Positions 23,572-30,293 of a stretch of 40,628 nt of DNA are shown one piece after another. The DNA is taken from positions 1 through 40,628 of the forward strand of contig CAIUOC010000008.1 of assembly GCA_903900685.1 (NCBI GenBank), given 5' to 3'. The notes under the pieces were generated by a model, which ran no database searches, was not told the DNA's origin, and saw nothing but the letters and a program-made list of their open reading frames with translations. How positions within the stretch are numbered: the stretch's first letter is position 1; every line of letters starts with the position of its first letter. The translations under genes were made by a program, and so were the position numbers. The DNA is from an uncultured Candidatus Saccharibacteria bacterium. Its GTDB lineage: Bacteria > Patescibacteriota > Saccharimonadia > Saccharimonadales > UBA4665.

Positions 23572-24300
23572 CTAGGCAAATCTTGTCACAATAAATATAA
23601 ATAAAGTTCCAAGAATGGTTAGGCCAATAATGGTTTTAGTACTTCCATCCTCATGAGCCTGAGGCAAAATATCACTTGCACCTATATACAGCAGAAACCC
23701 ACAGAAGAAGCCGAGATATATAACCAGATTAGTTGTGGAGAGGTGAAATAGCCTAGTCGAGAGAACACCAAGAACTGGAGCTATTGCATCAAGTATTAAT
23801 AGTTTTATTGCCTTACTATTCTTATTCTTGTTAGCTAACATTAAATTCACCGTATTAAGACCATCGGCAAAATCATGCCCTATAACAGCTATGGCAACTG
23901 CAATTCCTACAGTTGTATTAACCTGAAAACCAAGTCCAATTCCGACACCATCTAGGAAGCTGTGTCCTGACAGAGCGAATGCAGATAATACTCCGACCTG
24001 AGGGTGGTGATGTTGACCGTATTGCTTTTCTTCAGCATGATGCATAAGAAGTAGTTTCTCGGATATATGAAAAACCAAAAAACCAACTACTAAAGCTACC
24101 ATTGGAATTGTTGAATTTATATTATTTGCAGAAATTAACTTAAATATCTCAGGCAGTAGATCAAAAGCAACAACACCTATAATTACGCCGGCTGTGAAGC
24201 CCATGATCTTTTTGATCCATTTTTGATTTTTAAGGGCAAAAAAACCGCCACTTAGAGTAGACATAAATGTTGCTATGGATAATAGTATCGGCGTCATCAA
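23572..24300 (-). CDS. ZIP family metal transporter
   Basis: Multiple TMs; HSFLDGVGIGLGFQ and GHDFADGLNTV ZIP signature. Confidence 0.88.
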   Translation of the reverse strand: MMTPILLSIATFMSTLSGGFFALKNQKWIKKIMGFTAGVIIGVVAFDLLPEIFKLISANNINSTIPMVALVVGFLVFHISEKLLLMHHAEEKQYGQHHHPQVGVLSAFALSGHSFLDGVGIGLGFQVNTTVGIAVAIAVIGHDFADGLNTVNLMLANKNKNSKAIKLLILDAIAPVLGVLSTRLFHLSTTNLVIYLGFFCGFLLYIGASDILPQAHEDGSTKTIIGLTILGTLFIFIVTRFA

Positions 24301-24353
24301 TATACACTTATACAGACGTAAAACCTTTTTTGCAAATCTGTCGCATTAATAGT

Positions 24354-24466
24354 TATTTTTTTGCGAGTGCTGGATTCTTTTGATATAGCGAGGCTCTGAA
24401 ATATATTGTGCTAGGATCATAAGTACTCACCTGAACACTGGGAGCATCTATCCCCTCAAATATTCA
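24354..24466 (-). pseudogene. Diverged 3' fragment of a pilin-like gene
   Basis: Reverse complement reads ...IFEGIDAPSVQVSTYDPSTIYFRASLYQKNPALAKK*, matching the pattern SSVQTFVLDPTAQYFRVFLYQ of the full pilin gene at 24723-25412. Confidence 0.6.
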
Positions 24467-24508
24467 TTTCCTCCTTGTTTATCCAAACCTTAGAGTAGTG
24501 GTATTGCA

Positions 24509-24690
24509 TTCGAACTAACAACGTTCGTGCCTGATATCATTTGAATTCCAAGATACTGGGCTACTGGTGTATTAACTGATGGAGTAGGAATAAGTACGCC
24601 TAGTCCAGAGGTCTGGGCTACGGAGTTTGCAACTGCCATGACAGACAGTAACATTTCTACATTACCAAAACCTTTGTTATCTAATTTTAT
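24509..24690 (-). pseudogene. Truncated, startless, in-frame partial copy of the pilin-like gene (silent-cassette-like)
   Basis: 24509-24642 matches 24979-25112 with one mismatch in 134 nt; 24641-24688 matches 25351-25398; the copy lacks the intervening 240 nt yet stays in frame: NKGFGNVEMLLSV|MAVANSVAQTSGLG...; no ATG. Confidence 0.85.
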
Positions 24691-24722
24691 TGCCGTTTTT
24701 TATACTTATGGACTGATTCTAG

Positions 24723-25412
24723 CTAGCAAGCTGATAGTTTGTTGATATTAACACCGTAATCGTGTTTGAAATTGAATCCAGGAACATTGTAAGGATAATA
24801 ATTGGCGTTAACTTCAGGATTTCCAGTTGTATGTGCATCATGCTGGTAAAGGAAAACTCTGAAATATTGAGCAGTTGGATCTAGAACAAATGTTTGAACA
24901 CTGCTTAAATCTGCTCCTCGGGTCTGTACGTTGCCACCACCTGCACCTCCTATACTTGGATTAAGTATCGAAACATAGTTCGAGCTAACAACGTTCGTGC
25001 CTGATATCATTTGAATTCCAAGATACTGGGCTACTGGTGTATTAACTGATGGAGTAGGAATAAGTACGCCTAGTCCAGAGGTCTGGGCTACGGAGTTTGC
25101 AACTGCCATGACGTTTACCTGATTAACACTTGAACCACCAGTGACATTGTTTACCTGATTACCTATTGAACCACTAGCCACGCTTGGTTGCACGCAGGCA
25201 GATAAAGTTTCTGTTGCTGTTCCTAACTTATTTGGCCAAACAGTTGATAATGTAGCTATTTTTGTATAGCCTCCCGCATGGGCTTTAGTTGTCGTATTGC
25301 TATTCTGTAAGACATATAGACCAATACCAATTACAGCCCCAACAGCTACCACAGAAAGTAACATTTCCGCATTACCAAAACCTTTGTTATTTAATTTTTT
25401 TATAATTTTCAT
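24723..25412 (-). CDS. Type IV pilin-like protein
   Basis: Prepilin-like N terminus MKIIKKLNNKGFGNAEMLLSVVAVGAVIGIGLYVLQ; GGAAC SD-like sequence upstream. Confidence 0.75.
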   Translation of the reverse strand: MKIIKKLNNKGFGNAEMLLSVVAVGAVIGIGLYVLQNSNTTTKAHAGGYTKIATLSTVWPNKLGTATETLSACVQPSVASGSIGNQVNNVTGGSSVNQVNVMAVANSVAQTSGLGVLIPTPSVNTPVAQYLGIQMISGTNVVSSNYVSILNPSIGGAGGGNVQTRGADLSSVQTFVLDPTAQYFRVFLYQHDAHTTGNPEVNANYYPYNVPGFNFKHDYGVNINKLSAC

Positions 25413-25497
25413 CTTGTTCCTTTTTTATTTTTATAATTATATATGGATTATACTACTTTAATAAACATAATCAAATTATTATAAAGCAAGAGTTATA

Positions 25498-26472
25498 TTA
25501 AGCTTCAGTATTTTCTTGTTGAATAGTGTTCTCGTTAATAAATAGTTTTAGCTCATCATATAGGTTGTAGCCAAATAGATTCGCAAGATCTACGAGCCCA
25601 GGGGTTTGAATAATCTGACTAATCTCTTCGGATCTAATGCCTGAATACCACTTTGTATCTTTTTTTAGATCATTAGACCAATATTGTTTTGAGTTTTTAA
25701 CGAAATCATTCAATTCAGTAGCCTGATTTAATTTATCCTGTTCATTGATGAATTTTTCAAGTTCACCTGATCCAAGAATATATGCTAATGAATTAGGGTT
25801 TCCGCCAATACTATGGCACTGCGTGTAGTCAGTATTTTTACGTATTTTTGTATTACTCAAGAATTTACTTAATTCTTTGACAGCATCGTCCATATTATCC
25901 ATAAAATCCTCATACCTTATAGTGAGACAATTCAGACTATGACTGTTTACCGTTCTTAGTGCATCAACATAAGTGTCCCTCCATATACTTGCTGCTTCAT
26001 ATAATGTACAGTTATTTCTTTTTCGATAACTATCCGCAAATGCAAATGGGCTACGAAGAGTAATTATGACCTTAGGTTTAGTATCATAATTGCCTTGAGA
26101 GAGATAAAGTTGTAGCCAAGCTACATATTTACTACCATCAATAATATTATCTTTAGAAAAAGCTAAAGAAGCGTCGTCAATAAATTTTTGAATATTATTG
26201 AATGAAGAATTATTTCTTTGTTTTTCATCGAAAAAAATACACTCTCTTCTTGATCCACCATGAACCTCTTTTCCGCACTCTACACATAACCATTTTATTC
26301 CCCTTGGATGCGAATGATATAATTTATCATATTCTAGAAAATGAATGGACTCGCCTATATAGTGAGTGTTAGTAAGTCGGGCAGTTAACTCTCTACCAAT
26401 TAATGTAGACCCACAAAACAAGGTGCCAACCAAAAAAACTGGACTTAGAGATTTATTATATTTATCATCCAT
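25498..26472 (-). CDS. Sulfotransferase-like protein (PAPS-type P-loop)
   Basis: N-terminal VFLVGTLFCGSTLIGREL loop, RSPFAFADSYRKRN 3'-phosphate-type motif, internal CVECGKE...C cluster. Confidence 0.65.
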   Translation of the reverse strand: MDDKYNKSLSPVFLVGTLFCGSTLIGRELTARLTNTHYIGESIHFLEYDKLYHSHPRGIKWLCVECGKEVHGGSRRECIFFDEKQRNNSSFNNIQKFIDDASLAFSKDNIIDGSKYVAWLQLYLSQGNYDTKPKVIITLRSPFAFADSYRKRNNCTLYEAASIWRDTYVDALRTVNSHSLNCLTIRYEDFMDNMDDAVKELSKFLSNTKIRKNTDYTQCHSIGGNPNSLAYILGSGELEKFINEQDKLNQATELNDFVKNSKQYWSNDLKKDTKWYSGIRSEEISQIIQTPGLVDLANLFGYNLYDELKLFINENTIQQENTEA

Positions 26473-26473
26473 C

Positions 26474-28465
26474 TTAGATATATCTTCTTTTTTTAATATA
26501 AGACATGAGTTTTAGTATAAAGAAGATATTATACAATTTATAGTAGCGAATGGTTCCCATTTTCCAGCAATACTGCTGTAAGATTATTTTTGTAACTTTA
26601 ATTGGATGAATTAGTGAATTGATTAAGTATTTGAATCTATTATGGTTAAAATCAACCAAAGGAATATACGAAACCTTATTAAATCCACTATCCATTTTAA
26701 TATTTCCAAATAGTATTATTTCCTTTGTAGTTGGCTTATACAGTAACCTCTTGATACCACCTAACGACACTTTTAATAAATAATCCGGGCTACAATGATA
26801 ATTTGCATTATAGGAAGATAGGCCGTCTATCAGTCCCTCATGGATAATATCCTGAACCTCGTCGATATGTTTGGTTTTCATTGTAGTGTAAATATATTCC
26901 CAAATTTCAGGAACAAAAAGCTTAGCACTATTCTTTGATGCCACATCGCCTAAAACTATACCTCTCATTGCACCTCTTTCGGAGTGAAATCTATTAGACA
27001 GAATGCCATAATATATACCTTTAACTTCGTTAGTTTTACCAATCAATTTTAAATACTGTTTTAAGAATATTTGTATAGTTCCACCCCAGCCTAAATCCAA
27101 AATTTCTATATCGCTATTGTCTTTTGGAATTATTTGACTGACTAACTTATTGGCAATAATAATTTTCTTGTCAATATTCTTAGAATTAGTTAGTGAAGAT
27201 TCGAGTAATTTTTTGAATTCACTACTACTCATAAGATTAATTAATAGTTCACTTGATTTATGGTCCTTTGCAAATAAGAACTTATAAGTCTCACTTTTTG
27301 TTTTCATTTTTTCTCCATATCTAAGTAGATCATTAATGGCTTTTATATATTGTGGAGACTTGCCTTTAATAATCTGGAATATGACGGCTCTCATTATTAT
27401 TTTACGTTTAATCTTATTGGCTACAATAAATTTATAACTAGTCGATTTGTTTTGCCCAAACAATATCTTATTTGCTTGGTCGAAAATTAAAGCTTCTGAG
27501 GAAACCATAATAAAATTTGTATCACTTGTATTTTGAGATCTAAAATTACATTCGTAAATGTAGCTAATTAAAGGCAAGGAAAATAGTTGCCCAATATTAT
27601 ATATTTTAGATTGATAATTATTTGTTTCTAGTCTTCTCTGGGATTTTAATGATTTTCTTGTTTCAAAATTAATATTCTTATTGATGAGTTTAACTTTAGA
27701 ATAACCAATTTTTGTCTGAAAGTAATAATATAATTTCAGAATACGATTATTATAATAAATTGCGTCCGATCCATGAGTAAGCGGCATTATATAGTCCGAT
27801 ATATAATTATCTCCAATATGGACATTGGATTTTAGCGAAAAACCTTCAAAGTGATCATTCTTTTTAAGATATTTATACAATTTTCCACTACCTTTGTTAT
27901 GCAATATTTCTGAAGATGTAACACCATCATCGAAAATATCTAATATCTTAAATTTTTTAAGAAGATAATCGACATTCTCTACACTTAAATACATATCTGA
28001 AATATAAAAGATTTTAATATCGTAGTTATCTTTGGCATATCTTAAGTCTTCGATTATTGATTTATTTACATGAAGATTTTTAAGTTCAATATCTAATTCA
28101 ATATCGATCATTCTACGTAGCATTCTATTGATAATTTGTTTTGTTAATTTTTTGTTATATTTGTTTGCAAGCAAACCAATTATTTCGCTAAACCATTCTT
28201 CGATCTGGACCTCGTCATCCGTTCCTTGCATTTTTGTATTTAGTTTAATATTTTTAAGAATGTCTCTTGAATAATTCCTAAATGAATATATTTCATTGAC
28301 TGTAATTGTTTCATCGATATTTTCCTTGAATATATCAGCCCATTCTTTTGCAACTAAATAAAACTGTAGTTTTTCTGGCCTTATTTTACGATTCAAAACA
28401 GTGTCAAAAATATCTACAGTGATTGACTTTGCCCCACCCTCAAGACAATTAATCAATTTCTTCAT
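26474..28465 (-). CDS. HAD-superfamily hydrolase-like multidomain protein (COG5610-like)
   Basis: HAD motif I VDIFDTVLNR, motif II FYISDMYLS, Lys GSGKLYKYLKK, motif IV HIGDNYISD; C-terminal LDLGWGGTIQIFLKQYL; 1-nt gap to the sulfotransferase. Confidence 0.7.
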   Translation of the reverse strand: MKKLINCLEGGAKSITVDIFDTVLNRKIRPEKLQFYLVAKEWADIFKENIDETITVNEIYSFRNYSRDILKNIKLNTKMQGTDDEVQIEEWFSEIIGLLANKYNKKLTKQIINRMLRRMIDIELDIELKNLHVNKSIIEDLRYAKDNYDIKIFYISDMYLSVENVDYLLKKFKILDIFDDGVTSSEILHNKGSGKLYKYLKKNDHFEGFSLKSNVHIGDNYISDYIMPLTHGSDAIYYNNRILKLYYYFQTKIGYSKVKLINKNINFETRKSLKSQRRLETNNYQSKIYNIGQLFSLPLISYIYECNFRSQNTSDTNFIMVSSEALIFDQANKILFGQNKSTSYKFIVANKIKRKIIMRAVIFQIIKGKSPQYIKAINDLLRYGEKMKTKSETYKFLFAKDHKSSELLINLMSSSEFKKLLESSLTNSKNIDKKIIIANKLVSQIIPKDNSDIEILDLGWGGTIQIFLKQYLKLIGKTNEVKGIYYGILSNRFHSERGAMRGIVLGDVASKNSAKLFVPEIWEYIYTTMKTKHIDEVQDIIHEGLIDGLSSYNANYHCSPDYLLKVSLGGIKRLLYKPTTKEIILFGNIKMDSGFNKVSYIPLVDFNHNRFKYLINSLIHPIKVTKIILQQYCWKMGTIRYYKLYNIFFILKLMSYIKKRRYI

Positions 28466-28572
28466 TTATTTTTTAATACTCCAAATATTTACTATATAAT
28501 AACACTAAATTCGTATATTTTTTATATATAAAATTAAGTTTTGGAATTTGGAATAATATTAAATAGTATTAA

Positions 28573-28619
28573 AACAAAAAAGACCTTCAAGTAAATGAAA
28601 GTCTCTTATAGTGGAGCTA
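28573..28619 (-). repeat. Degenerate second copy of the ssrA 3' end plus terminator (candidate displaced att site)
   Basis: aacaaaaaagaccttcaagtaaatgaaagtctcttatagtggagcta versus 29851-29898 aacaaaaaagaccttcggtttgaccgaaagtcccttatggtggagctg. Confidence 0.75.
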
Positions 28620-28655
28620 ATCTTAAAAAATTGGCTCCAAATATATGAGTAACTG

Positions 28656-28686
28656 ATTTGATTTATTGATTTATTTATTTATTTAC
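28656..28686. repeat. Short TTTA-rich tandem repeat
   Basis: tttgatttattgatttatttatttatttac read directly. Confidence 0.5.
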
Positions 28687-28777
28687 TAAGCCATGAAATC
28701 TTAAAATACAAAAACAAGGAGAAAGCAAAATGAAATTGCTATATCATTATATTTATTACTCTTTTATGGAAGTAAAT

Positions 28778-29449
28778 TTACAAGCTAAATGACTTTAGAA
28801 TATCGATTGCAGTTTTTACCTCTGGTTGATTAAGATAATCTGTTGTCTTAAGTTTACTATTTTGTAAACTATCATTTGAACTATAATAACCATTTAGATA
28901 TATATATTCATCGTTTGGCATCGATACGTAATCTATTCCACCTACTTGACACTGAAAAGTCGCATAACCATTTCCCTTCAATAAATCACCAGTACTTCCA
29001 ATCCATAACTGAATCGGAACATCTACATAAGAAGAATAAGAAATAGCAAGATTATTATTTAGATTTTCGAGAATAGTAATTTTTGGAGGAGCAACGCAAT
29101 CTTCATTCTGAATAATTGGATTGTGATTGGTTTTACTGAGACTATAATCACTTTTAAAATTATTTGGCCCAGAGATTGTCAGATTTTCGAGAGTATATTT
29201 ATCGGTACTTTGAATACTGTTTATTGCCAACTTCCAATTTGCAGGGTATTGAAATTCAGCAGTACTATTTGAAGATTTATAAATAAGCCAACCTGTTTTT
29301 TTCGTTACCTGCACATGCTGAGTGATTATTGCTTTATGTTCGTGTTTGTATACTTGCCAGCCCATCACTCCTAATAGCATTACTACTGTAAATACTAATA
29401 TAGTCTCTAAAGCACTAAAGCCTTTTTCGTTTTTGTTTAGTTTGTTCAT
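28778..29449 (-). CDS. Type IV pilin-like protein
   Basis: MNKLNKNEKGFSALETILVFTVVMLLGVMGWQVYKHEHK: prepilin-like KGFSALE plus hydrophobic helix. Confidence 0.75.
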   Translation of the reverse strand: MNKLNKNEKGFSALETILVFTVVMLLGVMGWQVYKHEHKAIITQHVQVTKKTGWLIYKSSNSTAEFQYPANWKLAINSIQSTDKYTLENLTISGPNNFKSDYSLSKTNHNPIIQNEDCVAPPKITILENLNNNLAISYSSYVDVPIQLWIGSTGDLLKGNGYATFQCQVGGIDYVSMPNDEYIYLNGYYSSNDSLQNSKLKTTDYLNQPEVKTAIDILKSFSL

Positions 29450-29481
29450 GATTGCTTTAAGTATAGTTTAAATGTATTTTT

Positions 29482-29955
29482 TTGCAACAGATAAAAGCGT
29501 TGGAGCAACGTTCAGTGGAACTACAACAAACCAAGTCAAAGCTGATTATTGAAATGGCAAAGGCTGACCCCGAATACAAGCAGGACATCAAGGACGAGGT
29601 TGATAAAATTAAGACTCAGATAGCCGATAACGAAACACTGGTAAATCAGTCAGATGAACTAAACGAAGACTTGTTAGGGTTCGTGAAGTTCGGGCTGGAA
29701 TACACCAACACACTAATGGACAACTGCTGAAAGCTAGACCACGAAGAACGGGTACGGTGCCAACAACTGATATTACCAGGCTGAATTTAATACAATCACT
29801 CTAAAAAAGTTGGCACCCCCTTAATTAGCCCTATTTACTCCTTTCAAGCCAACAAAAAAGACCTTCGGTTTGACCGAAAGTCCCTTATGGTGGAGCTGGT
29901 GAGCACTGCCCTCACGTCCGAAGGTTTATTGATTGCCGATCTTCTACAGGCATAG
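29482..29955 (+). pseudogene. C-terminal relic of a large serine recombinase, frame running into the ssrA terminator and 3' end
   Basis: Frame from 29482: ...LLGFVKFGLEYTNTLMDNC*KLDHEERVRCQQLILPG*I*YNHSKKVGTPLISPIYSFQANKKDLRFDRKSLMVELV...; resembles the coiled-coil and 'RCQQLIFPGGFWVD..KKVYTP.ISPIY' tails of serine recombinases; in-frame TGA, TGA, TAA stops. Confidence 0.65.
29855..29882 (-). terminator. Rho-independent terminator of ssrA
   Basis: Minus strand GACTTTCGGTCAAACCGAAGGTCTTTTTTG: GC stem followed by T run. Confidence 0.85.
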
Positions 29956-30293
29956 ATAGTTTAAAGGTTTGTCTTGGAATAAGAACGAGAAACTATCAAA
30001 ATTCAAATCCCAATATATCTATGAAGTCTTAATGTCTATTCTAGATCAAAAATAGGCAAGCATCCAGATGATATGACGTCGTTAGTTAATATCTGGCGTC
30101 TCAACATACAACGGCTATAGCGTTTAGGCTACAGCTGGTGCGAAAGTACTTACGCTAAAAGGATTAAATCCTCTTACAGCAGTTGCTACGCGGTTCAAAA
30201 CTTTTGCAGTTATTGAATTTTGCCGTATAACGCTCAGCGAGCGACCTGCAGATCAAGCCAATAAAGTCCTACGTCAAGCTTAAATTCAGCCCC
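29888..30293 (-). ncRNA. ssrA: tmRNA (transfer-messenger RNA)
   Basis: 5' GGGGCTGAATTTAAGCTTGACG pairs with 3' CAGCTCC + encoded ACCA; resume context AATAACT|GCA; tag ORF 30207-30124 AKVLNRVATAVRGFNPFSVSTFAPAVA*; extended -10 upstream and terminator downstream. Confidence 0.92.

Follow-up and report, generated by a model that had tools for sequence, protein, structure and literature searches.

The window analysed here is a stretch of 40,628 nucleotides, contig C8 of the draft genome of an uncultured Candidatus Saccharibacteria bacterium (983 kb, 106 contigs, 97.5% complete). The gene content, with pilin-like proteins like those known from Saccharibacteria, likewise suggests such an organism. 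The minus strand of the window carries a full-length pilin-like gene (24723-25412) for a protein of 229 amino acids with a leader of class III type (G11|F12, E16), an AHAGG motif and an orphan distal domain. About 25 nt past the stop codon of this gene, on the same strand, starts a decayed paralog (24380-24697), a pseudogene with no start codon, an internal deletion of 240 nt, stop codons and a frameshift.

The leader of the 229-residue protein, MKIIKKLNNKG|FGNAE, is of class III type, with glycine at position -1, a hydrophobic residue at +1, glutamate at +5 and a hydrophobic helix behind it. Residues G11, F12 and E16 are invariant across 11 aligned sequences, namely this gene and the ten further genes that complete the profile set. 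The first-pass annotation of this DNA had called the gene pilin-like, and this identity is supported by the leader and hydrophobic helix and by profile relatives in 75 of the 93 genomes of the family. Its expression status we infer, and it is best described as a putative expressed gene. The leader profile gave weak matches to pilins in the PDB, where a sequence search with the full protein returned insignificant matches only; no pilin match to the protein was found in Pfam or NCBIfam. A structure prediction based on this one sequence reached a mean pLDDT of 32.8 and is credible for nothing but the N-terminal helix, residues 15-37. No relative of the full protein was found in searches of GTDB and IMG/VR contigs, and none of residues 46-229 among the 93 family genomes; for the distal domain, 393 genomes of the class yielded no confident relative and only two weak, unrelated-looking matches. 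As for assembly machinery, the genome contains four matches above the cut-off to T2SSE-family (PilB/PilT-like) ATPases, some of which may be paralogs belonging to other systems.

The copy is built from pieces that can each be placed on the gene. Its homogenised block (24509-24642) is identical at 133 of 134 positions to a partner block that begins at codon 101 of the gene (24979-25112), and within it up to 128 consecutive nucleotides match exactly. Upstream lies an N block (24643-24690), which, aligned in register so that it abuts the 134-nt block, is identical to 25353-25400 at 43 of 48 positions (5 mismatches); aligned as 24641-24688 against 25351-25398, it shows 4 mismatches in 48 nt (91.7%). 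With BLAST E-values of about 1e-64 for the block and about 1e-11 for the N block, both similarities are far above chance. Between the two pieces the copy lacks 25113-25352 of the gene, 240 nt that encode most of the membrane helix and the proximal domain, and at the joint just two nucleotides (GT) are common with the N region of the gene. The 5' end of the copy reads stop codon TAA, then AAA ACG GCA ATA AAA TTA GAT AAC, with no start codon. Recomputation thus reproduced the repeat lengths and mismatch counts of the first-pass annotation (1 in 134, 4 in 48), as well as the exact 240-nt gap and the missing ATG. Two further features of this part of the gene were observed. A short repeat of 29 nt (86% identity, spacing 36), encoding GNQVNNVTGGSSVNQVN, occupies 25113-25177 directly before the block, and the block itself (24979-25112) has a GC content of 46%, compared with 35% for the window, a value reached by only about 1% of the window's 134-nt stretches; this could hint at a foreign origin for that part of the gene.

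The copy had been taken to stay in frame and to end at 24509. The reading frame is indeed kept across the N block and the 134-nt block, but is lost beyond them: a stop codon follows five codons after the block (SSNAIPLL*), and about 55 nt past the block, behind stop codons and in a different phase, a homologous tail begins that extends the copy to at least 24380. This tail (24380-24454), GIDAPSVQVSTYDPSTIYFRASLYQ, is identical in 13 of 25 residues and 42 of 75 nucleotides to GADLSSVQTFVLDPTAQYFRVFLYQ, which the gene encodes near the pilin C-terminus (24843-24917). Its alignment to the C-terminal region, made by all-frame translation, scored 62, whereas the best of 2000 dinucleotide shuffles reached 40. 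A six-frame search of the whole genome found the copy independently, its match reaching 24397 with 3 to 5 in-frame stops. Since the tail lies in another phase and a stop follows five codons after the block, the copy is, as its sequence reads, the wreck of a complete paralog and not an in-frame cassette.

Divergence between gene and copy is distributed as a mosaic, with 5 mismatches in 48 nt in the N block, 1 in 134 in the middle block and 33 in 75 in the tail. Block and tail contrast strongly (Fisher p = 1.8e-16), with the limitation that just 75 nt of tail can be aligned, and the contrast is also seen at third codon positions, of which 1 of 44 differs in the block and 13 of 25 in the tail (p = 1.5e-6); the contrast of block and N block alone is weaker and in the same direction (p = 0.005). 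The block is therefore far more similar than both of its flanks, silent sites included, as a conversion tract would be. A duplicate decaying under unequal constraint, with the middle identical because it is conserved, might have been considered, since the constraint on the N-termini of pilins is indeed unlike that on their distal parts. This is very improbable, as third positions are identical at 43 of 44 codons in the block and at only 12 of 25 in the tail, and as the copy is a pseudogene on which selection at the protein level is impossible. Because the silent sites show the same contrast and the copy is outside such selection, a uniformly decaying duplicate is rejected. Recent block-wise recombination between the neighbouring copies is supported as the most economical reading of the sequences, and the gene-conversion-like exchange proposed in the first-pass annotation gains from the newly found tail a far sharper contrast (1/134 against 33/75).

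It is proposed, with a probability of roughly two-thirds, that a tandem duplication was followed by decay of the downstream copy and later by homogenisation of a short tract, which would make the arrangement a by-product of a fast-evolving surface-protein locus rather than a switching device. An ancestral duplication would have produced a head-to-tail pair of pilin-like genes, of which the downstream member would then have died, with the loss of the start, the 240-nt deletion, the stops and the frameshift that it now displays, and diverged strongly, to the 44% of nucleotides that differ in the alignable tail. A later exchange, to which the mosaic pattern points, would have rendered about 134 nt identical in the two neighbours, most likely by RecA-dependent short-tract gene conversion or by template switching. 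RecA is present in the genome, and it occurs almost everywhere. We think transfer from the working gene to the dead copy likelier than the reverse; the data polarise neither direction. In the copy, the 5' boundary of the block falls at the point of the 240-nt deletion, a coincidence expected for a conversion tract halted by missing homology, whichever way it ran. Decayed tandem paralogs with gene-conversion tracts in bacterial multigene families offer the same picture, an adjacent pseudogenised duplicate with one tract far above its flanks, and nothing at this locus clearly differs from them.

The coincidence of boundary and deletion is compatible with a fusion too. The block could derive from a third, recent duplicate that two deletions fused to what was left of an older paralog, with no conversion at all; the junction of the N block and the 134-nt block, with its 2 shared nucleotides (GT), resembles a joint of illegitimate deletion. 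Such a history calls for one more duplication plus two deletions, while a single conversion tract is enough otherwise, and we consider it unlikely, while keeping it in view: as the distal domain has no outgroup, conversion is not separable from a multi-step fusion via a third, lost duplicate. Less credence still is given to an assembly artefact in which the repeat would be a graph tangle between strains in a fragmented genome. The draft does consist of 106 contigs, a 128-nt exact repeat is about as long as the k-mers with which common short-read assemblers work, and contig C105 of the same genome breaks inside an exact repeat of 124 nt. It can be reasoned, however, that four junctions (mid-block, block-C1, N2-block and block-C2) must all exist in the sampled DNA for this contig to be assembled, and that a tangle may alter the number of 470-nt units but would hardly invent the mosaic of N2, block and tail. 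A near-identical repeat within a surface-protein gene also recalls the template and variable repeats of a diversity-generating retroelement. The sole difference between the blocks is a coding-strand C/T and does not involve an adenine of that strand, and no reverse transcriptase (PF00078) was found in the draft genome, so that this candidate was rejected and its chance is practically nil.

The first-pass annotation had gone further and compared the locus with pilS/pilE. In Neisseria, silent loci serve as donors of variants to pilE (PMC3899283), and here likewise a type IV-pilin-like gene stands beside a promoterless, startless partial copy, with a trace of recent recombination in the distal part. 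That the copy is a silent cassette donating sequence to the expressed pilin is nevertheless very doubtful. It is the single copy besides the gene in the draft genome, with no donor repertoire, and outside the block it is closed by stops and a frameshift. The block differs by one synonymous base, so that conversion across it leaves the protein unchanged and delivers no variation, while a conversion tract that extended beyond the distal end of the block would bring in the SSNAIPLL-stop and truncate the pilin to 150 amino acids. No quadruplex motif (G3+N1-7) was found on either strand of the window, and a comparable repeat is absent from the corresponding slot in the sister species. The analogy thus fails on the tested features, which are repertoire, open variant copies and quadruplex, and recombination between pilin copies is what stands. 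It is equally far-fetched that the 128-nt direct repeats could delete and reinsert the 470-nt unit, giving a 229-residue pilin or one of 150 residues without the C-terminal part, as a crude on/off switch for the pilin surface domain of an episymbiont. Papers found on antigenic variation in Patescibacteria offered speculation only, on tandem VirB2 arrays and large FhaB proteins. The locus is best read as two adjacent duplicates that recombined in the ordinary way, and nothing in it points to a dedicated antigen-switching or programmed variation system.

Three congeneric species carry different cargo, pilin-like genes included, in the slot between ksgA-MarR and ZIP-RBP-ABC-metG: here (24300-29888 of the window) two pilin-like genes with sulfotransferase-like and HAD-like genes, in one sister species (L032 1756-4203) a 197-residue pilin-like gene with an O-antigen-polymerase-like membrane protein, and in another (L035 6375-8358) a pilin-like protein of 448 residues. 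The 197-residue gene has an internal direct repeat of 65 nt, 95% identical, at 2527-2678. A tmRNA gene (66.8 bits) was observed on the minus strand at 29888-30293 of the window.

Elsewhere in the genome the leader profile matches at 16 places, the N block of the copy being one of them. Tandem pilin-like genes on contig C105 (L093 4096-4219 and 5074-5197) share 124 nt exactly, covering the upstream region, leader and helix, and the contig ends within the second gene; other tandem pairs are alike at 86% over 253 nt (contig C99) and at 96% over 53 nt (contig C100). Similar 5' ends also occur on separate contigs, C23 and C105 at 93%, C105 and C4 at 82-95%. Duplication, decay and partial homogenisation are the normal course for pilin-like genes of this genome, and the one peculiarity of the present locus is that homogenisation affected the middle of the gene. 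Among the type IV pilins and minor pilins of Saccharibacteria, TM7x is reported to have 12 putative pilins whose globular regions vary and which act in host binding and twitching (PMC12206443). Those pilins and the present ones have in common a leader of class III type, globular domains of diverse kinds, a large number of genes in each genome and T2SSE-family ATPases; the distal domain here has no detected homolog. The VirB2-like arrays of Patescibacteria, the phylum to which this bacterium belongs, likewise consist of pilin-like genes in tandem, but they are secretion-system pilins of low mutual identity (25% of amino acids on average; PMC12102498), whereas the present gene has a leader like that of type IV prepilins and shares one near-identical block with its copy.

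The locus shows duplication, decay and exchange of short tracts among the pilin-like genes of this bacterium, and in this way the proteins with which Patescibacteria contact their hosts could become diverse. Instability of the 470-nt unit in populations, should it be seen, would hint at phase variation of pilins in the group. Another decayed member is perhaps present on contig C4 (L094 2213-2723), where a pilin-like gene is apparently split by a frameshift, a leader ORF of 67 residues overlapping one of 120 residues in another frame. On contig C100 (L030), an intergenic element is repeated four times in 3.1 kb (252-365, 1122-1194, 1459-1553 and 2516-2667; 79-84% identity), between pilin-like and small coiled-coil genes, and carries the hairpin ACCATCTATGAAAGTAGGTGGT, a T-rich stretch and a promoter-like box.
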